Shown: positions 3,854-28,291 of the stretch, one piece after another
Layout: the number at the start of each line of letters is the position of its first letter
Position numbering within the stretch: the stretch's first letter is position 1
Source: Clostridia bacterium
GTDB taxonomy: Bacteria; Bacillota; DULZ01
Direction: 5' to 3'
Assembly: GCA_012840125.1 (NCBI GenBank)
Contig: DULZ01000028.1
Location: 1-39,250, forward strand
Length of the DNA stretch: 39,250 nucleotides
Made by a program: the position numbers and the translations under genes
The notes under the pieces: model-generated
Databases searched by the model: none
Told to the model about the DNA's origin: nothing
What the model saw: only the letters and a program-made list of their open reading frames with translations

Positions 3854-4468
3854 ATGTACGAAGACCTGTCCCAGCGCCAGGTAGAGATTCTTCACTACAT
3901 CCAAAAAGTTACCCGGGAAAAGGGCTATCCTCCTTCCGTCAGGGAAATCGGCCAAGCTGTAGGCCTTAGCTCCAGCTCTACAGTGCACGGCCACCTGGCC
4001 CAATTGGAAGCTAAAGGCTACATTCGTCGGGACCCTGCCAAACCAAGGGCCATTGAAATACTGGATACCGATGGTTTCCCGGAGACCCAGCCCCTGGTTC
4101 AGGTACCGCTGTTGGGAAGGATCACCGCCGGCAATCCCATCCTGGCCACCCAGCATATCGAGCAAATCGTCCCCCTCCCCTTCGACCTGGTGCGTACCCA
4201 AGATGTTTTCATGTTGTCCGTCGTGGGAGACAGCATGATTGAAGCCGGCATCTACGATGGCGACTATGTCATTGTCAAGCAGCAGCCTACGGCGGAAAAT
4301 GGGGATATTGTGGCTGCCATGCTTGATGATGAGGCTACCGTAAAGCGCTTCTACAAAGAAAAGGACTGTATTCGCCTGCAGCCGGAGAATCCAAAATACT
4401 CCCCTATCCTCACCCGGGAAGTAACTATTCTGGGAAAGGTTATCGGCCTGTACCGCCGCTTGGGCTAG
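3854..4468 (+). CDS. lexA: LexA, SOS repressor and self-cleaving protease
   Basis: A 204-residue LexA. The N-terminal winged helix-turn-helix contains [17 protein letters not shown]. The autocleavage site is the Ala92-Gly93 bond in RITAGNP. The catalytic dyad is Ser127 in VGDSMIEAG and Lys164 in DEATVKRFY. It represses SOS genes, and RecA filaments stimulate its cleavage after DNA damage; recA is also in this window. The ATG at 3854 has a GGACGGAGG site. The stop codon overlaps tail to tail with that of the convergent ynbB-like gene within the palindrome CTAG (4465-4468). Two LexA boxes over its own promoter predict autoregulation. Confidence 0.97.
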
Positions 4469-5748
4469 AGAGCCAGCAAGCCTTGCTTCACCATATGATC
4501 GATGGCGGTCAGGAGCCCGGCTTTGATATAGGGATAAGCCAGTCCACCCTGCAGGAACACTGTATAGGGTTCCCTAAGGGGGCCGTCAGCACTCAACTCA
4601 ATAGATGAACCCTGGATAAAGGTTCCTCCCGCCATAATCACCACATCTTCATAGCCAGGCATAGGGGCCGCCTCGGGCGTGATGTGGGAATCCACGGGGG
4701 AACCCTTTTGCAAGCCCTGGCAAAAAGCCACGAGCCGTTCTTTGGACCCAAGAGTAATGGCTTGTATGATGTCCGTCCTTTCCTCATCCCAATGGGGTTC
4801 CACGGAAAACCCCAGTTCGGAAAACAACTTGGCGGCTAAAACAGCTCCCTGGAGGGCTTCTGAGACAATGAGCGGTGCCAAGAATAATCCTTGAAAATAT
4901 AGTCTCTTGCCTCCCAGGGAACAGCCCAACTCCCCCCCTAAACCCGGAGCCGTCAGCCTGTGGGTTATTCTTTCCACCAGTTCAGCTTTGCCGGCGATAT
5001 AACCACCTGCCGGTGCAATACCACCGCCGGGATTCTTGATAAGAGAACCGGCAATAACATCGGCCCCTACTTCAGGGGGTTCCAGTTCCTCCACGAATTC
5101 CCCGTAACAGTTGTCTACAAAACAGATCACATCGGGTTTTAACCCTTTCACATGATTAATCAAATCCTTGATCTCCTTGATGGATAGGGATGGCCTTAGG
5201 CTGTAGCCGCGGGAGCGCTGAATAGCCACCAACCGGGTGCGCCCGGTGATCGCCCTTTCAATCCCATCGAAATCCGGTTTGCCCCCAACTAAAGGCACCA
5301 CCAGGTGCTTGATGCCCCAGTCTCTTAACGAGCCATCCCCTTGGTGACGGCCGTCCACGATCTTAACCAAAGTATCATAAGGTTGCCCCGTAATAGATAC
5401 GACCTCATCCCCGGGCCGGAGCAGCCCGTATAAACACAGGGCGATGGCATGGGTACCGGACACAATTTGGGGCCGTACCAGGGCTGCCTCGGCACCGAAT
5501 ACCCGGGCAAACAGGCTGTCCAGGACATCCCTGCCCACATCCCCATATCCATATCCGGTACTTTCTTGGAAATGATAGTCGCTGACTTCCAATGCTTGAA
5601 AGGCCCTCAGCACCTTAAAATGGTTCTTTTGGGCTCCCCGGCGCACTCGATCCAGCATGGGGCTGATGCTTTTTTCTAAGTCATTTGCCCAGGACCATAT
5701 CTTATCGCCGCAAAATCCGCTGCTGTAGTCCTTACCGCGTTCCGTCAA
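4465..5748 (-). CDS. ynbB: YnbB-like PLP-dependent enzyme (methionine gamma-lyase / aluminium-resistance family)
   Basis: A 427-residue fold-type I PLP enzyme of the family annotated as methionine gamma-lyase-related or aluminium resistance protein. Visible elements are the N-terminal [17 protein letters not shown], the aspartate in [13 protein letters not shown] (about residue 212) that would hold the PLP pyridine nitrogen, and the probable Schiff-base lysine at residue 238 in [17 protein letters not shown]. The start is a TTG at 5748 behind AAGGGGAGA; upstream codons are not in frame with any better start. It lies 25 bp after the spoVK-like gene, an arrangement also seen near spoVK in Bacillus, although hflX, usually between them, is missing here. 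Physiological substrate unknown. Confidence 0.85.
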
Positions 5749-14700: not shown

Positions 14701-16077
14701 CTAGAAAACATAAGCGGTGACCCGGCGCAATTCCTGAAAATTACTGCACTGGTAAATCCCCTGGCAATAAGGCCGGTATAATGCCAATACGCTGTCTTTC
14801 TCATACCACTGTTCCGACGGGCGGGGATTAAGCCAGTAGATACCGTTGACCTTACTAGCAATCTCTTCCAAGGCGCCTACTTGCGGGTCACGCCAGTTGT
14901 TCTTACCGTCTCCCAGGATAATCAGCTTGGCTTTTGCCGGGACACTGGGCAAATACATGGCCGCAAAATCACTGAAAACACGCCCGTAATCAGTAAAGCC
15001 GGTGGCGGAACAAGGGGCATAGATGCCCAGGAATCTTAACTTTTCCAAAGCCTCTTGCTTCTGCAGCAAGTGGGTTACTTCAGCTATCCGGTCCACAAAA
15101 ATGAAACTCCGGATTTTCTTGTGTTTTGTTTGAAATGCCCAAACTAAAAGCAGCACGAAAAAAGTATACCTGGACATGGAGTTGGAAATATCGCACAGGA
15201 CAACCAATTCCGGCCGGTCCGGTTTGCGGCTTTTTCGTTTCAGCCGCATAGGCACGCCGCCTTGGGTGGCTGCCAACCGCAGCGTCCTTTTCAGGTCAAT
15301 TTTCCCGCGCTGGCTGGGATGCAGTCGATAACCTTTACGGGAGGCTAGTTTCTTACCTAGTTTTTTTACCTGCTGCGCCACTAGATCCAGGGTGGCTTCA
15401 TTCAAGTGATTGAAATCCCTTCGCCGGTAGTTCAGCTCCTGCAATATCCCTTCAATATCCTGTTCCCCTTTTTGTGCAGCGGTTTTCCGGTACAGGTGAT
15501 ATTCCACCGCTAAGGCCAACTGCTCCAAACGCTCCAGCATAAAGTGTTTTTCCGCCTCGTTGAGTCCAAGCCGGTTCTCTAAATCGTGTTTCAGCATGTG
15601 CCAGTCCAACTGGCGCTGGATGTTTTCCCAGTGCACGGTAACCTGGTGCAGCCGGAATTCTTCGTCAGGGATGCTCTCCACAATGCGCTGCGCCATCCCG
15701 CCGATGTCCTGTTCCTCTAATAAAGAGAGCAAAAAATCCCCCCTGGAGCCTCCGATACCGCTTCGTCCAAGGCCCCTGCCGTCACAGCTGCCGGCCTTTA
15801 TTTTCATGGCCATCTCCTCTTTAGCGATGCCGGACCAACCCCGGGTGTTTGGTTGGGTAGGAGGCGGCCCAAAGCAAAGGGCGTAGACTTTTTCAAAAAC
15901 GATCATTTCTTGGGGGCTTTTGGCAAAGATGGAACGCAGCACAGTATGGAAAGTTTGCGGTTCCACCCCAACCAAGGTCAAAGCTTCCAAAGCCGTTATC
16001 AATTGTTCCAGACTGGCGGTAATACCGGCTTTCCGGAGAGAGTAAACGAAATGCAGCAGTTTTTCCACCATGTTCAT
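14701..16077 (-). CDS. VWA-domain protein, CoxE-like
   Basis: A 458-residue protein of the VWA/CoxE family. The N-terminal half is helical and charged; the C-terminal von Willebrand A domain has a full MIDAS: DISNS at about residue 297 (VVLCDISNSMSRYTF), the threonine in SATGFTDYGRVF and the aspartate in LIILGDGKNN. No signal peptide or transmembrane segment is seen. MoxR ATPases pair with VWA proteins in metal-insertion or complex-assembly chaperone systems (CoxD/CoxE for CO dehydrogenase). The start ATG overlaps the moxR-like stop by 4 bp (16074-16077), showing coupled translation. No client enzyme is encoded nearby. Confidence 0.85.
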   Translation of the reverse strand: MNMVEKLLHFVYSLRKAGITASLEQLITALEALTLVGVEPQTFHTVLRSIFAKSPQEMIVFEKVYALCFGPPPTQPNTRGWSGIAKEEMAMKIKAGSCDGRGLGRSGIGGSRGDFLLSLLEEQDIGGMAQRIVESIPDEEFRLHQVTVHWENIQRQLDWHMLKHDLENRLGLNEAEKHFMLERLEQLALAVEYHLYRKTAAQKGEQDIEGILQELNYRRRDFNHLNEATLDLVAQQVKKLGKKLASRKGYRLHPSQRGKIDLKRTLRLAATQGGVPMRLKRKSRKPDRPELVVLCDISNSMSRYTFFVLLLVWAFQTKHKKIRSFIFVDRIAEVTHLLQKQEALEKLRFLGIYAPCSATGFTDYGRVFSDFAAMYLPSVPAKAKLIILGDGKNNWRDPQVGALEEIASKVNGIYWLNPRPSEQWYEKDSVLALYRPYCQGIYQCSNFQELRRVTAYVF

Positions 16078-16949
16078 TTAGCACCCGACAACAAAAGATA
16101 ATCCAATTTGCCGGCAATTTTCTGGAAATCTTCGCGATACTTAACCAGCAACATCATCGTATTGTGCACTAATTCTTTCCCTAAGGAGACCACGTTCAGG
16201 CTGACCAGGGCATGGGCCCAGTCGACGGTTTCGGCGATACTGGGCGGCTTCCTGAGATTCTGCTTCCGGAGCAAATGCACAAAATGGACTACCTCCCGGC
16301 CCAGCCGCTCGTCTATATCCGGTACCTTACGGCGGATAATAGTCAGTTCCGTTTCCGGGGAAGGATAATCCAAGTATAAATGAAAACATCTCCGCCGCAG
16401 CGCTTCGGAAAACTCCCTGGCACTGTTACTGGTAATGATGATGGCAGGAATACTGGTGGCTTTAATCGTCCCATACTCGGGAATTGTTACCTGGTATTCG
16501 GATAAGGTCTCCAATAGGAAGCTTTCAAATTCCTCTTCGCTCTTATCCAATTCATCGATCAATAAGACCGTTTCTTTATCGGCGGTCAAAGCCTTCAACA
16601 GGGGCCGCTCCAGCAGGAATTCCCTGGTATAGAGTACGCTTTTTGCGTCGGACCATTTTAATTCATCCCGTAGATTAGCTTGGATCCACAACAACTGTTT
16701 CTGGTAATCCCATTCATACAAAGCCTTCGACTCGTCTAATCCCTCATAACACTGCAGCCTAATTAATTCTCGCTGGGAAACCTGAGCCAGCGTTTTCGCC
16801 AGTTCCGTTTTGCCAACGCCGGCAGGTCCTTCAACTAACAACGGCCTTTTCATCTGCCAAGCCAAATAGATAACCGTAGCCGCATCGCGATTCAAATAAT
16901 AGCCGGCTTGTTCTAAACGAGAAATAAGGTCGTCAATGGATTTAAACAT
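16074..16949 (-). CDS. MoxR-family AAA+ ATPase
   Basis: 291 residues from ATG 16949 (an in-frame TTG at 16976 overlaps the preceding gene and lacks an SD). Walker A is GPAGVGKT (41-48); Walker B is VLLIDELDKS; the sensor region contains IIITSNSAREFSEALRRRC. This is a single-domain MoxR ATPase, a family that works with VWA partners to remodel or metallate client proteins. It is translationally coupled to the VWA/CoxE-like gene and follows a HAD phosphatase by 19 bp, so guaB-HAD-moxR-coxE-like form one directional cluster. The client is unknown. Confidence 0.9.
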   Translation of the reverse strand: MFKSIDDLISRLEQAGYYLNRDAATVIYLAWQMKRPLLVEGPAGVGKTELAKTLAQVSQRELIRLQCYEGLDESKALYEWDYQKQLLWIQANLRDELKWSDAKSVLYTREFLLERPLLKALTADKETVLLIDELDKSEEEFESFLLETLSEYQVTIPEYGTIKATSIPAIIITSNSAREFSEALRRRCFHLYLDYPSPETELTIIRRKVPDIDERLGREVVHFVHLLRKQNLRKPPSIAETVDWAHALVSLNVVSLGKELVHNTMMLLVKYREDFQKIAGKLDYLLLSGAK

Positions 16950-16968
16950 ACTCTCAACCCTACCCCTA

Positions 16969-17673
16969 TTACTCAAGATGGACCAGAAACGCCAAGCAAT
17001 CTGCCAGTGTCCCCCGGTAATCCGTGATAAAATCCCTACCGGTCCGGTTAATCAGGTAATCTTCCACCAGGAAGGATTTCATGCCTAGCTCGCGGGCTAT
17101 CAAATCCTCATCCACATCGTTGCCGACCATGAGGCAGTCCGCCGGATCGACACCGATAAGCTCGACAATTTCCCGGTAATACTCTATATGGGGTTTACAA
17201 AAGTGCATGATTTCATAGGATGTGATCAAGTCGAAAGCGACATCGGCGATGCCAATCCAGCGCAATCTTTCCCGAATGGCTTGCAAGGGAAAAACAGGAT
17301 TCGTGGCAATAACAACTTTACCCTGACGCTTAGCAGCTTCAACGATTTTCGGCACCAATGGATTGGCAGGACAGATTTCCCGCAGCCGGCAGAACTCAGT
17401 GACATAAAAGCGGTCGAAAACCGGCTTCATTACTTCCGGCAGCAGCCCCGTCAGGGCGAAAAACTTTTCCATGAATACCTGCTCGTTGGTCTTGCCGGGA
17501 TCTTTATCCCCAATCATGCAAAAAGTAGCTTCCAATAAATGCCGTACAAAAGTATCCGGTTCCATGTAGGGCGCGGTAAACATTGACAGCAGTTTCAGGT
17601 ATTCCTGCAGAAACTCGTCGGTATCCACCGGAAGTAATGTACCGTCCAAATCAAAGAGTATTGCTTTAAACAA
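16969..17673 (-). CDS. HAD-superfamily hydrolase
   Basis: 234 residues from a TTG at 17673, which gives MFKAILFDLDGTLLP at the N terminus and has GGGGGAGGAG directly upstream; the longer frame from the GTG at 17691 would contain that SD inside the coding region. HAD motifs: DLDGT (motif I), VIATNP (motif II), the lysine in CKPHIEYY (motif III) and VGNDVDED (motif IV). A helical cap lies at about residues 15-100. Substrate unknown; small phosphorylated metabolites are typical. It lies 18 bp after guaB and 19 bp before the moxR-like gene, so it is probably in their transcript. Confidence 0.85.
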   Translation of the reverse strand: MFKAILFDLDGTLLPVDTDEFLQEYLKLLSMFTAPYMEPDTFVRHLLEATFCMIGDKDPGKTNEQVFMEKFFALTGLLPEVMKPVFDRFYVTEFCRLREICPANPLVPKIVEAAKRQGKVVIATNPVFPLQAIRERLRWIGIADVAFDLITSYEIMHFCKPHIEYYREIVELIGVDPADCLMVGNDVDEDLIARELGMKSFLVEDYLINRTGRDFITDYRGTLADCLAFLVHLE

Positions 17674-17691
17674 ACTCCTCCCCCATCTCAC

Positions 17692-19619
<1,928 letters not shown>

Positions 19620-19638
19620 TATCTCGCCCCCCGAATAC

Positions 19639-19667
19639 ATGAGGCAGGTAATTCCTTCCTGCCTCAT
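19639..19667. repeat. Perfect 10-bp inverted repeat upstream of fxsA
   Basis: ATGAGGCAGG (19639-19648) and CCTGCCTCAT (19658-19667) flank a 9-nt loop, between the HTH gene stop and the fxsA start. There is no T-tract, so it is not a classical terminator; it may be an mRNA processing or regulatory hairpin, or an operator. Confidence 0.6.
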
Positions 19668-19685
19668 CCTCGTTAAACTACTCTC

Positions 19686-19916
19686 CTAATCTTGTCCGGC
19701 AATGGAATGAATGCCAAACCGTTCGAAATGCTCCCGCAGGTGTTTAATGGTGCCCGGCGATGCGGCCAATACCTCTGCGATTTCCTCATCACTTCGATTC
19801 AAGCGAAGCTGCTCCATTAGAGCGTCAAAACTTATGCCTGCTTCTTCAGCTTTGCTTTTAAGACTTACATCCATGCTCCAAGGCACTCTTGACATAAACC
19901 TGTCCAAACATTCCAA
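19686..19916 (-). CDS. Small helix-turn-helix protein, unknown
   Basis: Up to 76 residues. The C-terminal half (RSDEEIAEVLAASPGTIKHL) looks like a helix-turn-helix of the kind found in sigma-factor region 4 or LuxR-type regulators. The N-terminal half (FMSRVPWSMDVSLKSKAEE) matches no domain I know. The start is uncertain: the TTG at 19916 abuts a GGGGG that is too close to serve as SD, and an ATG at 19895 has only a weak AGG. The upstream region holds a 9-bp inverted repeat whose distal arm covers that G-run. A DNA-binding regulator is likely; its target is unknown. Confidence 0.6.
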   Translation of the reverse strand: MECLDRFMSRVPWSMDVSLKSKAEEAGISFDALMEQLRLNRSDEEIAEVLAASPGTIKHLREHFERFGIHSIAGQD

Positions 19917-19918
19917 CC

Positions 19919-19960
19919 CCCTATCTTGGACATCTATGCTTATTCTTTCCTAAGATAGGG
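19919..19960. repeat. Inverted repeat over the HTH gene ribosome-binding region
   Basis: CCCTATCTT (19919-19927) and AAGATAGGG (19952-19960) are perfect complements separated by 24 nt. The arm nearer the gene contains the only G-rich candidate SD, so the repeat could hide the ribosome binding site in RNA or be a protein-binding operator. Confidence 0.55.
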
Positions 19961-19975
19961 TCCGGTATGTTGGCC

Positions 19976-21143
19976 TTAGCCAAAGGCCTTACCTATTCTC
20001 TCCACAGCCTCGCGCAGTAATAGCTCATCAACAACTAATGCCATCCGCACGTATCCTTCACCGTTTTCCCCGAAAGCAGTACCAGGCACCACCACCACGC
20101 CGGCCCGGTCTAATAGGTCCAAAGCAAATTGCCTGGCTGACCGGTAACCCCAGGGCAAAGGAGCCCACACAAACATGGAAGCCTTCGGCTTAGGTATCTG
20201 CCAACCGCAAGAGCTTAATCCGTCTACTAACACATCGCGCCTTTTTTGGTAAATGCGCGCATTTTGTTTGACCCATGCTTGGGAGCCGGTCAGGGCAGCA
20301 ATGCCGGCCATTTGCACTGGTTTAAAAACACCGAAGTCAATGTTGGATTTAACGGTAGCTAATCCTTGGATGACCTCCCGGTTTCCCACTACAAAGCCCA
20401 GCCTGCAGCCGGCCATACAGAAAGTCTTGGAAAAAGAGTGGAATTCAATGCAAACGTCTTTCGCCCCTGGTACTTCTAAAATACTGGGAGGCTGGTAGCC
20501 ATCATAAGCCAGTTCCGAATACGCCAAGTCATGACAGATGATAATATGATACCGGCGGGCAAAGGCAACGGCTTCCGCAAAAAACTCCAGGCCGGCCACC
20601 GCCGCAATGGGGTTATTAGGATAATTCAAAAACATGATTTTAGCCGCCCTGGCCACGGCGGGGGGGAATAGAGTTGAAATCAGGCAGGAACTCGTTTTCC
20701 GCCTTCAACGGCATTGGATACTTCACTCCACCGGCTAACACTACGCTGGCGGTATACACCGGGTAACCAGGGTCGGGCACCAGGGCAATATCGCCAGGGT
20801 TCAGATAGGCTAGCCCCAAGTGAGCCAAACCGTCCTGGGAACCCAAAACCGGCAGGATTTCCTGCTCTGGGTCCAGGGAAACCTTAAACCTGCTGTGGTA
20901 CCACTTGGCCACCGCTTCTTTGAATTCCAGCATGCCTGCTGTCAAGGGATACCCATAATTGCCCGATTGATTGATTTCCCTCGCTAATGCTTCCTTGATA
21001 TGCTCTGCCGGCGGCAGATCCGGGCTGCCAATACTCAGGTTAATCGGCACCATACCTTCCCGTTCCTTTTTTTTCCTCAAGTCGTCCAGTTCCGAAAAAA
21101 TGCTTGAACCTAATTGATTGAGCCGCTCAGCTGTACTGAACAT
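19976..21143 (-). pseudogene. DapL-family PLP aminotransferase, interrupted by a one-base frameshift
   Basis: Two adjoining frames together give one class I/II aminotransferase of about 390 residues. The N-terminal frame (to codon IPP) has INLSIGSPDLPP, YGYPLTAGMLEFKEAV and VPDPGYPVYTAS; the C-terminal frame has MFLNYPNNP, ICHDLAYSEL and the PLP-lysine motif SFSKTFCMAGCRLG. The break lies at a run of seven C on the coding strand (20660-20666); six C would join the frames as IPPAVARAAKIM. The pattern most resembles LL-diaminopimelate aminotransferase-like enzymes. ATG 21143 is preferred because GGGAGG lies 6 nt upstream. It overlaps the end of the PHP gene. True mutation, slippage site or sequencing error cannot be told apart here. 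Confidence 0.75.
20660..20666 (-). other. Frameshift site: homopolymer of seven C
   Basis: The plus strand has G7, which is C7 on the coding strand. One base too many separates the two halves of the aminotransferase. Downstream codons continue the family pattern without further damage. Confidence 0.85.
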
Positions 21144-21957
21144 CGTCATCCTCCCGCTTTCTCCTCAATTGTTCCACTATATTCCGGCTGGCGCCGCATT
21201 TCCCCAGCGATACGTCTTTAATCTTGCCATGAAAATCAGAACCGCCCGTGGCCACTAACCCGTGCAAACGACACAGCTCCATCAGGTACTGCCTGTAAGC
21301 AGGAGCATGTTCCGGGTAATCCACCTCCATACCCTCAATACCACAATCGATAATTCGCTTCACCAGGGAATTATCCTTCAGCAATCCCGGATGAGCCAGC
21401 ACAGGAACCCCTTTAGCCTTTTTTATCAGTTGGACGGCCGCTCTGAAATCTATTTTCTCTCTTGCCACGTAGGCCGGAGCTCCTTTGGTTAAGAACCGGG
21501 CGAAAGCCTCCTGCACATCCGTCACATACCCGGCATTGACCATGGCCACCGCCAAGTGAGGTCGGCCAATGACACCGGCACCGGCAATTTGCTGCACTTC
21601 GGCAAAATCCAGGGGAAAACCCAACTCAGCCAGCCGAAGGAGCATTTTCTTAATCCTGTTCGCCCGCTGTTCAGTCATCTCCTTCAATGCCTGTGCCAGG
21701 CAAGCCGCACGCCAATCGATGAAATAGCCAAGCAGGTGTACCTCGTGCCCGGCAAAATCAGTACTGAGTTCAATACCTGGAATCACCTCGACATTATATA
21801 CTCGCCCAAAGAACAGACCTTCCTCCAACCCGTCCACGGTATCGTGGTCAGTAATGGCCAGACCCTGCAGGCCCAGTTCTTTCGCCAGACCCACCAGCTC
21901 TCCGGGTTCCATGGAACCGTCGGAAGCCCTGGAATGAGTATGTAAATCGAATTCCAT
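21127..21957 (-). CDS. PHP-domain phosphoesterase (YciV/RNase AM-like)
   Basis: 276 residues from ATG 21957, behind AAGGAG; two upstream TTG codons are too near that site. PHP metal-binding motifs: DLHTHSRASDG at the N terminus, TDHDTVDG, the glutamate in VIPGIELS, the histidine in VLAHPG and GGSDFHG near the C terminus. The family hydrolyses phosphoesters, including 3',5'-nucleoside bisphosphates and 5' ends of RNA in the RNase AM group; the exact substrate is not shown. It overlaps the aminotransferase start by 17 bp, so the two are coupled. Confidence 0.88.
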   Translation of the reverse strand: MEFDLHTHSRASDGSMEPGELVGLAKELGLQGLAITDHDTVDGLEEGLFFGRVYNVEVIPGIELSTDFAGHEVHLLGYFIDWRAACLAQALKEMTEQRANRIKKMLLRLAELGFPLDFAEVQQIAGAGVIGRPHLAVAMVNAGYVTDVQEAFARFLTKGAPAYVAREKIDFRAAVQLIKKAKGVPVLAHPGLLKDNSLVKRIIDCGIEGMEVDYPEHAPAYRQYLMELCRLHGLVATGGSDFHGKIKDVSLGKCGASRNIVEQLRRKREDDDVQYS

Positions 21958-22030
21958 CAACAAACTCCTTTTGACTTATATCTTAAACTAATTGTAATCT
22001 CTTACAGCATGGAACACAAGTCAATTCAAT

Positions 22031-22993
22031 CTACTCCGCCGGCAGCACCTGTCCCAGCACCCGCAGCCAGTTGTCACCGGTTATTTTGTGAATATCTTCG
22101 TCGGAAAACCCCCTGCCCGCCAACCGGTCCAGCAGGCGCGGCCAGGCCATTGCCGTCTCCAGGCCGGGCAGCACTTGATCCATACCGTCAAAATCAGAGC
22201 CGAAGCCCACATGGTCCACCCCCATGACCGTAACGGCATGCTCCACATGATCCAGCAATTTGTCTACGGAAGGATGAAGACCGTCCACAAACTCCGGTAC
22301 AAAGGTGATCCCTACCAGGCCGCCTTTGACCGCCAGAGCCTTTAACTGCTCATCGGTTAAGTTGCGCCGGTGAGGACAGAGCTTCCGGCAGTTGGCATGG
22401 GTCACCACTACCGGGGCTTCACTGATTTCAAGGGCTTCCCAAAACCCTTTCTCTGCCAAGTGCGCTAAGTCCACCAGCATACCGAGCCGGTTCATTTCCC
22501 GGATCACTTGTTTGCCCAGCTCCGTTAAACCCCGGTGCCTTTCCCCCACGCCAACCCCATCGCCCAAACAGTTCCTGTCGTTCCAGGTCAGCCCTAAACT
22601 CCTTACGCCAAGGCGATGCAGGATACTCAAGGTATAGAGTTCCCCTTCCAGGGCTTCTCCCCCTTCAATGGACAAGAGGACACCTAAACACTCTTCCCGG
22701 TCCAACTCTGTCAATTCCCGCCGGGACTTGATGAGTCTCACCTTGGCCGCGTTTCTTTCCACTTCCCGGTGCAAAAGCTCGATACCTTGCAGTGCCCTCC
22801 GCAAAGCCCCTGCCTGCCGGTAAGGCTGCTCGATAAAGACAGCCAGGAACTGCAGCTTCACGCCTGCCTCCCTCAAGCGCACGAAATCCGCTTGACCTGC
22901 TTGACTTCGCTCCCCAAGAGAACGCCTGCCGTGCAGTACGTCCAACATGGAATCACAGTGGGCATCTACAATGGGATATCGATAAACTGTCAA
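22031..22993 (-). CDS. Peptidase family M19 (membrane dipeptidase family)
   Basis: 320 residues. Binuclear zinc ligands typical of M19 dipeptidases are visible: H12 and D14 in VDAHCDS, the bridging E110 in LLSIEGGE, H178 in DLAHLA, H199 in THANCRK and D267 in FGSDFDG. These enzymes cleave dipeptides, often with D-residues; bacterial forms lack the eukaryotic GPI anchor, and none is seen here. No signal peptide, so cytoplasmic. The start is a TTG at 22993 behind AAAGGAGGTG. The strong spoVS terminator just upstream means it needs its own promoter, which was not clearly seen. Confidence 0.88.
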   Translation of the reverse strand: MTVYRYPIVDAHCDSMLDVLHGRRSLGERSQAGQADFVRLREAGVKLQFLAVFIEQPYRQAGALRRALQGIELLHREVERNAAKVRLIKSRRELTELDREECLGVLLSIEGGEALEGELYTLSILHRLGVRSLGLTWNDRNCLGDGVGVGERHRGLTELGKQVIREMNRLGMLVDLAHLAEKGFWEALEISEAPVVVTHANCRKLCPHRRNLTDEQLKALAVKGGLVGITFVPEFVDGLHPSVDKLLDHVEHAVTVMGVDHVGFGSDFDGMDQVLPGLETAMAWPRLLDRLAGRGFSDEDIHKITGDNWLRVLGQVLPAE

Positions 22994-23037
22994 CCGCCAG
23001 CACCTCCTTTTGCTATTATCATAGTCTTTTTGATGAC

Positions 23038-23064
23038 AAAAAAAACTGCTCTGGAACAGAGCAG
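23038..23064 (-). terminator. spoVS terminator
   Basis: On the minus strand CTGCTCTG (23057-23064) pairs perfectly with CAGAGCAG (23046-23053) across a 3-nt loop, followed by T8 (plus-strand A8 at 23038-23045). Confidence 0.93.
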
Positions 23065-23094
23065 GTAAGTATCCCGGCTAACCGTATGTTGTTT

Positions 23095-23358
23095 CTATCT
23101 GGGCTCAACAATGAACTTAATGGCCGTTCTTTCCTCGCCGTCAATCACGATGTCGGTGAAGGCGGGAATACAAATCAGGTCCACTCCACTGGGTGCAACA
23201 AATCCCCTGGCTATAGCTACTGCTTTGACCGCTTGGTTGATCGCTCCTGCGCCAATTGCTTGGATTTCCGCACAACCTCTCTCTCGCAGTACACCTGCCA
23301 GAGCACCGGCTACGGAATTTGGGCTTGATTTCGCTGATACTTTCAAAACTTCCATCAT
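23095..23358 (-). CDS. spoVS: SpoVS, stage V sporulation protein S
   Basis: An 87-residue Alba-like protein of the highly conserved SpoVS family. Typical stretches are visible: EVLKVSAKSSPNSVAGALAG, IGAGAINQAVKAVAIARG, FVAPSGVDLICIPAFTDI and DGEERTAIKFIVEPR. In Bacillus it affects septation, coat assembly and engulfment through an unclear nucleic-acid-linked mechanism. The start is the ATG at 23358 or 23355 behind GGGAGG. A sigma-H-like promoter lies about 50 bp upstream (23411-23437) and a strong terminator follows, so it can be expressed on its own. Confidence 0.96.
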   Translation of the reverse strand: MMEVLKVSAKSSPNSVAGALAGVLRERGCAEIQAIGAGAINQAVKAVAIARGFVAPSGVDLICIPAFTDIVIDGEERTAIKFIVEPR

Positions 23359-23410
23359 CTTGACCTCCCGTAATTATTTCGTTTGTTTGGAGATTACCCA
23401 TATTCAGTAT

Positions 23411-23437
23411 ATTCTGCACCTTAGCGGAAAAACCTTT
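23411..23437 (-). promoter_or_regulatory. Sigma-H-like promoter of spoVS
   Basis: On the minus strand AAAGGTTTT (23429-23437), an 11-nt spacer, then GCAGAAT (23411-23417). This fits the Bacillus sigma-H pattern RnAGGAwWW-N11/12-RnnGAAT with one -35 mismatch. A TATACT overlapping the -10 could also serve sigma-A. Confidence 0.5.
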
Positions 23438-23460
23438 TAATCTAAAAACTTTTTTCCTTT

Positions 23461-24246
23461 TTAAAGCTCAATTGGGAAGTTAATACTTTCAATGGAACGG
23501 GCCAGACCATTGACTGAATTAATATCGATCACCACCGCATTAAATTGAGTTGGACCCTTGGCTAGATGAAACTTCACCGGCATCTGCGTTACAAACCTTT
23601 CGATGATCACCTCCGGTGCAATGCCTAATACTGAGTTCATCGGACCCGTCATGCCTACATCAGTAATATAAGCTGTACCATTAGGTAAAAGCCGTGTATC
23701 GGCGGTTTGGACGTGGGTGTGGGTGCCGCAAACGGCACTGACTTGCCCGTCTAACCAGAAACCCATGGCGTATTTTTCCGAGGTGGTTTCGGCGTGAAAA
23801 TCCACAATAGTATTGACCGTGACATGGCTCGTGTGCTGCACGATCTCCCTGACCGTCCTGAAGGGACAATCCAGGTTCTCCATGTAAACTCTTCCCAAAA
23901 GGTTGATCACGGTCAACTTTTCTCCATTGGCTACATCAAAAATACCATAACCTTTGCCCGGCGTTCCCGGCGGGTAATTGGCCGGCCTAATAATCCTTGG
24001 CTCCGTTTCAATGTAATCCAGCAGCTCTTTCTTATCCCAAACATGATTGCCCATGGTGATGACATTCACACCGTAGGCAAACAGCTCTTCTGCCACGGGA
24101 CGAGTTAACCCATTGCCGCCGGCGGCATTTTCTCCGTTAGCAATGACAAAATCAACGGCGTAATCATGAACAATCTTACTTAAGTATTGCTCCAATACTT
24201 GCCGACCCGGTTTTCCTACCACGTCCCCAACCATCAATACCCGCAA
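23461..24246 (-). CDS. ymdB: YmdB-family metallophosphoesterase
   Basis: 261 residues from a TTG at 24246 (MRVLMVGDVVGKPG), placed 8 nt after AAGGAGG; the longer frame from 24267 would have the SD inside it. Metal-binding motifs: GDVVGKPGR, the aspartate/asparagine in FVIANGENAAGGNG, MGNHVWD, DFHAETTSEK and CGTHTHVQTAD. Bacillus YmdB is a calcineurin-like phosphodiesterase acting on 2',3'-cyclic nucleotides and influencing biofilm versus motility choice. Its position just downstream of rny is conserved in Firmicutes; here one unknown gene lies between. spoVS follows. Confidence 0.94.
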   Translation of the reverse strand: MRVLMVGDVVGKPGRQVLEQYLSKIVHDYAVDFVIANGENAAGGNGLTRPVAEELFAYGVNVITMGNHVWDKKELLDYIETEPRIIRPANYPPGTPGKGYGIFDVANGEKLTVINLLGRVYMENLDCPFRTVREIVQHTSHVTVNTIVDFHAETTSEKYAMGFWLDGQVSAVCGTHTHVQTADTRLLPNGTAYITDVGMTGPMNSVLGIAPEVIIERFVTQMPVKFHLAKGPTQFNAVVIDINSVNGLARSIESINFPIEL

Positions 24247-24271
24247 GTATGCCCCTCCTTGCCGCAATCAA

Positions 24272-24874
24272 CTACTTCTTGAAAACGTGTACTTTTCCCT
24301 CTTCGCGAAAAGCGATCAGCTTCTTTCTCGGCACCGACCCTTTGAATTTTTCCAGCATGTAGTTAATAAACTCATCCTGCAGCAATAAATCATCCTCACT
24401 GATAGGATCTCCAATATCCAAATCTCTCATTAAACAATCACCGAATTCCTCATGCAAGAATGATATAATCAAAGCGATTTCGCCTTTCGAAACAGCATTG
24501 ACATCGTATTCGACCTTTAACAGGCTGGTTTTTTCCAGGGTTGTCCAGTGCACGGAGACGGTGGGCGGTTCTTTGCCTTCTAGGAAACTATATGCTGCCA
24601 GGCAATCGTTTAATCTATGGCTGCCCTGGCGAAATCTTTCCTCCGCGATGGGTTCCGCAAAGCTGAAAGATAAAGAAATCAGATTGTCATCCGGATTATA
24701 ACTGATGGCACAGATTTCGGGATATCGCATTAAAATAGAAATTAAAAGGCCTGCACTTTCCGAAACCCCTTCTCCATTATTGTAGATGAAATCCAACTGT
24801 AACACCTGCCTCTGACAAATCCTACTTGTGCTCTTTATTCTGCTTTCTAAAAGTATTCTCCTTCTGGCAACCAT
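24272..24874 (-). CDS. Conserved-looking protein of unknown function between rny and ymdB
   Basis: Up to 200 residues; no family recognised. No transmembrane segment. The composition is that of a globular alpha/beta protein (LDFIYNNGEG, AISYNPDDNLISLSFSF, VSVHWTTLEKTSLLKVEYD) with an acidic helical C-terminal part and a basic end (FREEGKVHVFKK). The start is uncertain: ATG 24874 has no SD, while a TTG at 24796, before DFIYNNGEG, has AGGTG at good spacing and would give about 174 residues. It lies 25 bp before ymdB, so it is probably co-transcribed with it and may act in RNA turnover, which is inference from position only. Confidence 0.7.
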   Translation of the reverse strand: MVARRRILLESRIKSTSRICQRQVLQLDFIYNNGEGVSESAGLLISILMRYPEICAISYNPDDNLISLSFSFAEPIAEERFRQGSHRLNDCLAAYSFLEGKEPPTVSVHWTTLEKTSLLKVEYDVNAVSKGEIALIISFLHEEFGDCLMRDLDIGDPISEDDLLLQDEFINYMLEKFKGSVPRKKLIAFREEGKVHVFKK

Positions 24875-24904
24875 CGTTGTGCAAAATTATTTTATACCAA
24901 TAGA

Positions 24905-24934
24905 AGAAAGCGATCCCATGAGAGATCGCTTTCT
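24905..24934 (-). terminator. Hairpin at the end of rny
   Basis: On the minus strand AGAAAGCGATC (24924-24934) pairs perfectly with GATCGCTTTCT (24905-24915) across an 8-nt loop; the T-tract is interrupted (TTCTATT). It may terminate partially or protect a 3' end. The rny stop lies in the first arm. Confidence 0.65.
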
Positions 24935-26504
24935 ACTTGGCGTATTCAACTGCCCTGGTCTCTCTGATGACTACCACCTTGATCTGACCCGGGTACTCCA
25001 ATTCCGCCTCAATTTTCTTAACAATATCTCTCGCTAACCTGACGGCCAGTAAATCATCCACTTTATCAGGCTTCACCATAATCCTGATTTCTCTACCGGC
25101 CTGGATAGCAAAAGCCTTCTCAACTCCATCAAATGAATCCGCGATTTCTTCCAGTTTTTCTAGCCTCTTAATATAGGTCTCCAGGGTTTCTCTCCGCGCG
25201 CCGGGTCGAGCTGCGGAAATGGCATCGGCAGCCTGCACCAGCACCGCTTCAATGGTTTGCGGTTCCACATCCCCATGGTGGGCACCGATGGCGTTAATTA
25301 CATCTGGATTCTCCTTATACTTTTTGGCAATTTCCATGCCAATGGCCACATGGGGCCCTTCTACTTCATGATCGACCGCTTTACCGATATCGTGCAGCAA
25401 ACCGGCCCGTTTAGCCAGCGCCACATCCACACCCAGTTCGGCGGCCATGGCCCCCGCCAGGTGAGCCACTTCAATAGAGTGCTTTAAGACATTCTGTCCA
25501 TAGCTGGTCCTAAACTTCAGCCTACCCAATAGTTTGACCAACTCAGGGTGGAGCCCATGGACACCGGTTTCAAAGACGGCTTGTTCGCCTTCTTCTCGAA
25601 TCCGCTGTTCCACTTCTTTTTGCGCTTTCTCCACCATTTCTTCGATCCGGGCAGGATGAATGCGCCCGTCATTAATCAGCTTCTCCAAAGCCACTCTGGC
25701 AATTTCTCTCCGAATGGGGTCAAACCCTGAGAGAATAACAGCTTCCGGTGTATCATCGATGATTAAGTCGACACCGGTCAGGGTTTCCAGGGCCCTGATA
25801 TTGCGTCCCTCTCTACCGATGATACGGCCTTTCATTTCATCATTCGGCAAAGCTACAACTGAAACGGTGGTTTCTGCTACATGGTCAGCAGCACAACGCT
25901 GAATCGCCAAGGTGATCACTTCTCTTGCTCTTTTGTCAGCTTCATCCTTAGCTTGGGCCTCAATTTCCTTGATCATCATCGCCGCGTCATGCTTGATTTC
26001 TTCCTCGATGCTGGCCAATAAAAGCTTCCTCGCCTCTTCGGAAGTCAAGCCGGAGAGTCTCTCCAACTCTGCTACTTGCTTGGCGTACACCTCCGCCAGC
26101 TCAGCTCTCTGTTCCTCCAGTTCAGCTTCCTTCCGTTGGAGATTTTCCTCTTTACGTTCCATCATTTCGCCTTTACGTTCCAAGGCTTCTTCTTTTTGCA
26201 CGAGCCGCCGCTCCAAGCGCTGGAGCTCGTTACGGCGCTCCCGGTACTCTCGATCGGCTTCATTACGCAGCCGGTGAACTTCTTCCTTGGCTTCCAAGAT
26301 GGCCTCTCGCTTCTTTGCTTCAGCATCCTTTTCAGCTTCTTCAATGATTCTTGCTGCCGCTTCCTCGGCAGAGGCAATTTTTGCCTCGGACAAGTGCTTG
26401 CGCACCAGGTAGCCCACCGCTAAACCAACAGCTAAACAGATGATACCAACGGTTAAGTATCCCCAAAAAATACTTCTCACCTCCTTATCAAAGATCGCCA
26501 GCAA
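24933..26504 (-). CDS. rny: Ribonuclease Y
   Basis: A 512-523 residue membrane-anchored endoribonuclease that starts mRNA decay. Domain order: one N-terminal membrane span ([20 protein letters not shown]), a long charged coiled coil (roughly 30-190) rich in Glu/Lys/Arg, a KH domain with [15 protein letters not shown], and an HD domain with [13 protein letters not shown]. The start is unusual: a perfect AAGGAGGTGA (26477-26486) lies inside the frame opened by the TTG at 26504, and the codon at optimal distance after it is ATT (26469-26471). Starting there gives the family's normal length. The coordinates keep the outer TTG. Confidence 0.93.
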
Positions 26505-26778
26505 ATGGATAAGCTATGGTTACAAAATAATGCCGAGCAACACTCGGCATATGTTAGAAGCTATCACCTTTTTCCAACTGGTATTCCATAAAATGACTTC
26601 CGGCTTAATATACCTTAACATCGTCCTTGATCGAATACGATTAAAGCAGACCACTCCCTCAAGCTGGGGCTCTACGTAAAGGTATCCAAAACCCGTTTCA
26701 TCATCTCTATGGAAAACACAAGGTGGCAGTTTCCAACACTACTCTTCTTTTGTATTTTAATATTGCCAGGTTTGCCTG
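26505..26778 (-). other. Intergenic leader between recX and rny with a terminator-like hairpin
   Basis: No gene is evident in about 270 bp. A possible -10 TATATT (26607-26612, minus strand) precedes an 11-codon frame (ATG GAA TAC ... TTC TAA, around 26560-26590). Then comes a perfect hairpin, ATGCCGAG (26543-26550) with CTCGGCAT (26530-26537), followed by TATTTTG. It may end the recA-recX transcript or act as an attenuator before rny. Confidence 0.45.
26525..26550 (-). terminator. Terminator-like hairpin upstream of rny
   Basis: An 8-bp perfect stem (26543-26550 with 26530-26537) with a 5-nt loop, followed on the minus strand by TATTTTG; about 25 bp upstream of the TTG that opens the rny frame. 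Confidence 0.65.
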
Positions 26779-27261
26779 TCAAGTTTGATTAACTTCGGAA
26801 AAATCAATCCCGAGTTCATAAATCGACCGGCGGATAATCTCCGGAGAAAAACCCCTGCGCAGCAGGAAATTGAACAATTTGTACTGGTTCACACCTTGGG
26901 ACTGCAATTTAGTCAACTTGGCACGCACGGCATTCTTGGCCAACAATAATTCCTGCTCCTCCGGTAACAATTCATCAAGAACCTGATTGATGATTTCCTC
27001 CCTGATGCCTTGTTGGAGGAGCTCACTCCTCAATCGCCTACGTCCCATCGGTTTGAAGCGGATACGGTCCTCAATCCAAAAACGGGCGAATTCGCCGTCA
27101 TTAAGATAATTTCTCTCCTCGCAGTAAAGGATGACCGCTTTCACATCTTCTTCGGGAAAACCTCTATTCCTCAACTTCTGCTCCAATTGGTTCTTGGCAT
27201 ACCTTTTTCTCCCCAAGAGAGTCAATGCATAGGATAGGGCCTTTTTGTTCAGCTCCGTCAT
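26779..27261 (-). CDS. recX: RecX, regulator of RecA
   Basis: A 160-residue, highly helical RecX with three tandem three-helix repeats: ALSYALTLLGRKRYAKNQLE, YLNDGEFARFWIEDR and the C-terminal KLFNFLLRRGFSPEII. RecX binds RecA filaments and modulates strand exchange and SOS induction. It starts with ATG 4 bp after the recA stop, so it is co-expressed with recA under LexA control. Confidence 0.93.
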   Translation of the reverse strand: MTELNKKALSYALTLLGRKRYAKNQLEQKLRNRGFPEEDVKAVILYCEERNYLNDGEFARFWIEDRIRFKPMGRRRLRSELLQQGIREEIINQVLDELLPEEQELLLAKNAVRAKLTKLQSQGVNQYKLFNFLLRRGFSPEIIRRSIYELGIDFSEVNQT

Positions 27262-27265
27262 AATC

Positions 27266-28291
27266 TCATCCTAAATCGCTCTTTTCCTTACCGGCTTCTC
27301 TTTGCCTGTTAGGAAAATAGTGATGGCGGATAGCTTCTTCAATAGCCGCAGTTATATCTTTATGTTGTTTCAAGAATTCCTTAACATTCTCCCTGCCTTG
27401 GCCCAGTCGCTCGTCATTATACGAATACCAGGCACCGCTTTTTTGGATGATGTTCAATTCCGTCCCCAGATCAAGAACGCATCCTTCCCTGGAGATACCT
27501 TCTCCATACATAATATCAAAATCAGCTTGCTTAAAGGGAGGTGCCATTTTGTTTTTGACCACTTTGACCCTGGTCCTGGCTCCAACCAGCTCGTCTCCTT
27601 GCTTGATGTTTTCCACCCGTTTGATTTCCATACGCACGGAAGCATAAAACTTAAGGGCTCGTCCACCGGGGGTGGTTTCGGGATTGCCAAACATAACTCC
27701 TACTTTTTCCCGCAGTTGGTTGATAAAAATGGCTATGGTCTTTGATTTATTAATCGCACCGGCCAGTTTGCGCAATGCTTGAGACATTAAACGGGCCTGC
27801 AAGCCTACGTGACTGTCACCCATTTCTCCTTCAATTTCCGCGCGGGGAACTAAAGCCGCCACAGAGTCAATGACCACCACATCCACCGCGTTGCTTCTGA
27901 CGAGGGCTTCAGCAATCTCTAAAGCTTGCTCTCCCGTATCGGGCTGGGATAACAACAGGTTATCCACATCTACTCCCAAATTGGCCGCATAATTGGGATC
28001 TAAAGCATGTTCTGCATCAATAAACGCGGCAATCCCTCCTGTTTTCTGGGCTTCCGCGACAATATGGAGGGCTACCGTGGTTTTGCCGGAAGATTCCGGG
28101 CCAAAGATCTCAATAATTCTCCCCCTGGGCACTCCCCCAATGCCCAACGCTATATCTAAAGACAGGGCTCCTGTCGGTATAACCTCAATATTCATGCCGG
28201 TGGTCTGCCCCAGGCGCATAATCGAACCTTTACCAAACTGCCTTTCAATCTGCAGCAGAGCCGCTTCCAGGGCCTTTTGTTTATCAGTCAT
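27266..28291 (-). CDS. recA: RecA recombinase
   Basis: A 341-residue RecA, shorter at the C terminus than some. The N-terminal oligomerisation helix is followed by the ATPase core with Walker A GPESSGKT (64-71), Walker [13 protein letters not shown], and loop L2 with [22 protein letters not shown]. It forms filaments on single-stranded DNA, drives recombination and triggers LexA cleavage. The ATG at 28291 follows GGGAGGG. A near-consensus promoter (28330-28359) and a LexA box (28307-28320) lie upstream; recX is in the same transcript. Confidence 0.98.

Follow-up and report, generated by a model that had tools for sequence, protein, structure and literature searches.

A seventh C divides an aminotransferase gene, probably not a dapL, in a draft Clostridia genome

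In a 39,250-nucleotide stretch of a Clostridia bacterium contig, referred to here as the window, two adjacent frames of the minus strand together resemble one aminotransferase gene, which raises the question whether the gene is truly broken, what made the break and what the cell would lose by it. A preliminary description of the locus held that a DapL-type aminotransferase is interrupted by a surplus C within a seven-C run, and that a plain knockout would block lysine and cell-wall precursor synthesis if this were the only LL-diaminopimelate aminotransferase. The source genome (G000) is a 2.47-Mb draft of 106 contigs, 97.2% complete, and our search for relatives covered 61 genomes, namely its own and 60 relatives. 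The closest genomes compared, G001 and G002, belong to the same family, genus-level kin lying outside the comparison set. The features of the locus are as follows.

17692-19146, minus strand: IMP dehydrogenase (658.8 bits against a cut-off of 481.5), conserved downstream neighbour
19227-19667, minus strand: FxsA family membrane protein, conserved downstream neighbour
19976-20656, minus strand: C-terminal part of the aminotransferase, 226 aa from a GTG; TIGR03540 positions 162-382; 78-80% identical to G001/G002
20660-20666, minus strand: C7 run, site of the one-base frame shift, read from the sequence and compared with relatives
20640-21149, minus strand: N-terminal part of the aminotransferase, 169 aa; TIGR03540 positions 2-158; 72-74% identical to G001/G002
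21127-21963, minus strand: PHP-domain phosphoesterase (RNase RNM / 3',5'-nucleoside bisphosphate phosphatase-like), below both curated cut-offs
22031-22993, minus strand: M19 membrane dipeptidase family gene, conserved neighbour

The C7 run, which is G7 on the plus strand, divides one aminotransferase gene, both halves of which match a single aminotransferase profile (TIGR03540) consecutively. The N-terminal frame contributes 163 residues in frame, followed by six out-of-frame residues past the run and a stop at 20640-20642, while the C-terminal frame opens on a GTG that we describe as a chance start. Reading through at the run gave a protein of 390 aa with an exact junction, aligning to positions 2-384 of the NF006756 model (521 bits), and no further stop was seen in it; the claims that removal of one C joins the halves exactly and that there is no other damage were thus borne out. 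The start had been placed at 21143, which is indeed an in-frame ATG, but the second of two, the first being at 21149. The C-terminal half contains an SFSKTF stretch whose lysine we take to be the PLP lysine from general knowledge of fold type I enzymes, and by its full-length match and this S-x-S-K stretch the read-through protein belongs among the fold-type I PLP-dependent aminotransferases.

Both nearest relatives, G001 and G002, carry the aminotransferase whole and in the same gene order (one frame each, 392 and 399 aa respectively), which excludes a chance split and confirms that one extra C divides the gene. The read-through protein is 77 and 76% identical to these two orthologues over residues 3-389, and its C-terminal part is 80, 78 and 70% identical to those of G001, G002 and G004. 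The order M19 peptidase, PHP phosphoesterase, aminotransferase, FxsA and IMP dehydrogenase is conserved in G001 and G002 and partially in others, the PHP phosphoesterase being a neighbour in G001, G002, G004 and further genomes. In the window this PHP gene lies directly upstream and overlaps the start of the aminotransferase by 23 bases. The 12 other genes of the region 14701-28291 that were compared with G001/G002 each align in a single frame for most of their extent. A search of a plasmid collection gave no match, and a literature search on this gene neighbourhood found no report.

The comparison with relatives, proposed earlier as a check, covered 78 relatives (loci at least 53% identical and with sufficient sequence upstream, own copies removed), and a C7-like run was found at the junction in none of the 78, the longest C or G run near it being 5. 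The junction reads ATTCCCAAGGAA in G001, ATTCCCCGGGAA in G002 and ATTCCTCCGGAT in G004. There is accordingly no conserved slippery site at the frame change among these 78, as would mark a programmed frameshift. The idea that transcriptional slippage or ribosomal frameshifting yields full-length protein from the seven-C gene draws on the exact junction and on the ordinary constraint upon both halves, but a one-base loss (or a two-base gain) is needed here, and in a survey of E. coli and Buchnera transcriptomes (PMC5574713) homopolymer insertions occurred in A/T runs only and G/C runs were judged not slippage-prone. Since the run is not conserved and G/C runs are so judged, we regard recoding as very improbable.

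The frames could also encode two separate working polypeptides, as a GTG just past the run opens the second frame; however, no Shine-Dalgarno-like stretch is visible just before this GTG, the orthologues listed for the clade of the window gene are each one frame of at least 388 codons, and the split would presumably cut the fold. This is the least probable of all the readings considered.

Seven bases is short for a contingency tract. The proposal of phase variation, in which changes in run length would turn the gene on and off, has in its favour a C run of seven within a coding region, but the gene is a metabolic enzyme, and a census of C/G runs of at least seven bases in the genome gave 88 overlapping matches, that is 80 distinct runs, where a first-order model trained on the window predicted about 741, such runs being therefore under-represented. 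As the run is not conserved and C/G runs are not enriched, phase variation appears improbable. Equally slim is the chance that the run is a real reversible switch, by length change or slippage, such that part of the population runs without an aminotransferase commonly misnamed DapL. Taken together, all readings other than an error or a fresh mutation are unlikely. Of the causes listed in the preliminary description, error and fresh mutation thus stayed in the lead, while slippage and phase variation were weakened by the absence of the run from all 78 relatives, by the transcriptome survey (PMC5574713) and by the scarcity of C7+ runs.

For the census, the surroundings of the 78 runs outside the window were retrieved, and the runs were judged by frame lengths, by translations read by eye (15 strand views, 12 loci) and by a hexamer coding scan. 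The longest stop-free frame over the run reached at least 200 codons in 64 of the 80 runs, 100-199 codons in 10 and fewer in 6; frame size alone is blind to breaks, the aminotransferase run itself being counted among the 64. The hexamer scan, which looks for coding frames meeting at a run, recovered the aminotransferase case. It flagged 27 of 118 neighbouring frame pairs, and profile searches were then performed for a pair at window 4465 and for the second frame of locus L161. The apparent frame break at window 4465 was rejected as an antisense shadow of lexA; that at a G7 run in L161 was rejected too, since one frame ends there and an ABC ATPase gene begins. At the level of runs, the scan listed 12 rows at 11 run-strands; the ten other than the aminotransferase resembled ordinary gene boundaries or weak chance frames, those outside the window and L161 being judged from frame ends and scores. 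Hence only one of the 80 runs, that of the aminotransferase, was found to break a gene, and this rarity of homopolymer breaks speaks against a raw assembly prone to homopolymer errors. The window has one other C/G run of seven, at 4932-4938, and the methionine gamma-lyase family gene around it (4465-5748, minus strand) is intact. Genome-wide, the longest C/G runs are at L188:1501-1510 (10 bases), 40 codons into a long stop-free frame, and at L128:1501-1509 (9 bases), where there is no frame of 100 codons.

The label DapL-type held in the broad sense, as the read-through protein passed NF006756, a broad subfamily model named LL-diaminopimelate aminotransferase (521.1 against 507 bits), as did its orthologues in G001, G002 and G004 (532.6, 521.3 and 540.4 bits). 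It failed in the strict sense, for the protein fell below the equivalog cut-off of TIGR03540 (506.4 vs 593.25 bits) and below that of NF005815 (520 vs 545 bits), and a lysine implicated in substrate recognition is absent. The orthologues in G001, G002 and G004 also missed the TIGR03540 cut-off (513, 505 and 523 bits), whereas copies linked to dapF in G004 and G059 passed it (656 and 642 bits). In a tree of 116 rows, from which three short rows (L047, L044 and L016) were left out, the window gene fell in a clade of 24 rows (99% SH-aLRT, quick method) apart from the dapF-linked copies of G004, G006, G037, G040 and G059, and these five genomes hold both types of aminotransferase. The window gene is of the same aminotransferase branch as DapL (the TIGR03540 / NF006756 group), being 50-52% identical to the five dapF-linked copies, but it does not lie beside dapF.

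With clade memberships entered by hand from the tree, 18 type-specific columns separated the 24-row clade from a clade of 32 rows that includes the five dapF-linked copies, linkage to dapF having been checked for those five only. At residue 105 all 24 rows of the window clade have Q and all 32 of the other clade have K. In an alignment with 3qgu this lysine falls in a G-(A/S)-K motif and corresponds to K142 of the Chlamydomonas enzyme, which according to PMC3102117 is thought necessary for substrate recognition. The same lysine is also found in other aminotransferases, so its loss speaks against DapL without naming a substrate, and its presence alone would not make a DapL. The best PDB sequence matches, over nearly the whole length, were 2x5d ('PROBABLE AMINOTRANSFERASE', 334 bits) and 6l1l ('Aminotransferase', 301 bits), both of which have K at this position, unlike the window gene, while the third match, 2dou, has Q. 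Since it misses the strict cut-off together with three orthologues, stands in a separate clade and has Q at residue 105, the window gene is, as judged from sequence comparison, probably not dapL. Aminotransferases beside a PHP phosphoesterase form a group in Bacillota (window 19976-21963 and loci L008, L018, L054, L089-L093 and L100). On these sequence grounds the group is likely misnamed as LL-diaminopimelate aminotransferase, and, passing the broad model of that name but not the strict one, it could mislead pathway predictions.

The supply of diaminopimelate points the same way. G000, G001 and G002 each have a diaminopimelate dehydrogenase scoring above the TIGR01921 cut-off, that of G000 lying on contig C22 (95.8 kb). 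As described in PMC4176475, the enzyme yields meso-diaminopimelate in one reaction, so that DapF is bypassed. The possibility that the aminotransferase is the only route to diaminopimelate was therefore rejected, and the earlier conditional that a knockout would block lysine synthesis does not apply, the dehydrogenase being another route. dapB and lysA were over their cut-offs in all three genomes. DapF was found in six of the eight genomes searched and not found in G001 (93% complete) or G002 (81% complete), both of which have the dehydrogenase; this suggests that they make meso-diaminopimelate by it. Because DapF is required to turn the product of DapL into meso-diaminopimelate, a DapL role for the window gene is unlikely in this family.

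In G000 itself, DapF sits on a doubtful contig, C33, beside a plant-type DapL. C33 (L209, 1-5627) is 5.6 kb long, begins inside carB and holds the C-terminal part of that gene, dapF, a plant-type dapL (TIGR03542, 623 bits) and an unidentified frame that runs off the end. No match to the remaining half of carB was found in the G000 genome, and carB queries gave only weak matches in G001 and G002. Its GC content of 0.559 is just above the range of 22 chunks of the same genome (0.467-0.556), and its tetranucleotide distance of 0.203 is near the top of theirs (0.110-0.213), so that C33 is possibly a stray contig; for this reason the dapF-dapL pair was not relied on as settling the DapL question. 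As for a second dapL or a dapE-type pathway, proposed earlier as a check, the former was seen on C33, and the search for an acyl route, which covered DapH_N, gave no match in any of the eight genomes. None of G000, G001 and G002 yielded a carbamoyl-phosphate synthase large subunit scoring above the cut-off of TIGR01369, while all 14 control genomes did; either contigs are missing or the absence is a trait of the family.

Relative-rate counts, in which G001 and G002 served for comparison along with four outgroups, were about even for both halves (0.78-1.60 for the N-terminal and 0.73-1.45 for the C-terminal half) and inside the spread of the neighbour genes, so relaxed selection is not clear on either. 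Branch lengths from the shared fork in the tree were 0.23 for the window gene, 0.14 for G001 and 0.16 for G002; the longer window branch would fit some loosening, which the relative-rate counts do not show. The absence of the run from 78 relatives, the even relative rates and the single gene-breaking run among 80 indicate that the seventh C is very probably a recent slip of one base, private to this genome and with no function in itself, whether error or fresh mutation.

Runs of C or G readily gain bases by slipped-strand mispairing. A real and very recent mutation of this kind would leave a young pseudogene or a segregating null allele of a paralogue unneeded for diaminopimelate, and we give this reading a chance somewhat short of even. 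It agrees with the rarity of other homopolymer breaks in the assembly, with the other route offered by the dehydrogenase, which makes loss tolerable, and with the longer branch of the window gene. But there is neither a second lesion nor an acceleration in the relative-rate counts, so that such a mutation must long postdate the divergence from G001/G002, and same-genus genomes are absent from the comparison.

The best explanation, which we hold to have about an even chance, is an error of consensus or assembly at a short homopolymer. The gene would then encode a functional aminotransferase from a paralogue group of Bacillota, its seventh C a one-base consensus or assembly error, and in cells the reading frame would be whole. 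In support, both halves are fully preserved and evolve at even relative rates, as expected of a gene in use, the neighbours align in one frame, and gene order and the PHP overlap are kept. Against it, a homopolymer-prone method should leave more broken genes than one in 80 runs, although one sporadic error is still compatible, and the cell could probably build its wall without the gene, which would make a real knockout tolerable. That the seventh C is absent from cells is what we infer, and we favour it by a narrow margin over a genuine mutation of very recent date.

Also in support of an error, the GeneTack survey (PMC3711429) expected BLASTp-validated singleton frameshifts to be sequencing errors and not genuine indels; for singletons that Pfam confirmed as well, it expected either an error in a functional gene or an indel in a pseudogene. 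The present case is like these singletons in its one-base frame transition, whole homologues and frameshift site that is not conserved; the survey used complete genomes and ours is a draft of 106 contigs, and there is otherwise no difference of substance from the cases described there. The break itself thus carries little consequence, and it should not be taken as a sign of defective lysine or cell-wall synthesis, given that the dehydrogenase is present and the gene name doubtful.

A related aminotransferase in a Desulforamulus aquiferis record (L047:4519-5675) also shifts frame, near 4908, without a long homopolymer. The next aminotransferase-like match in that record (L047:5811-6970) is spread over three frames, and this stretch looks error-rich.
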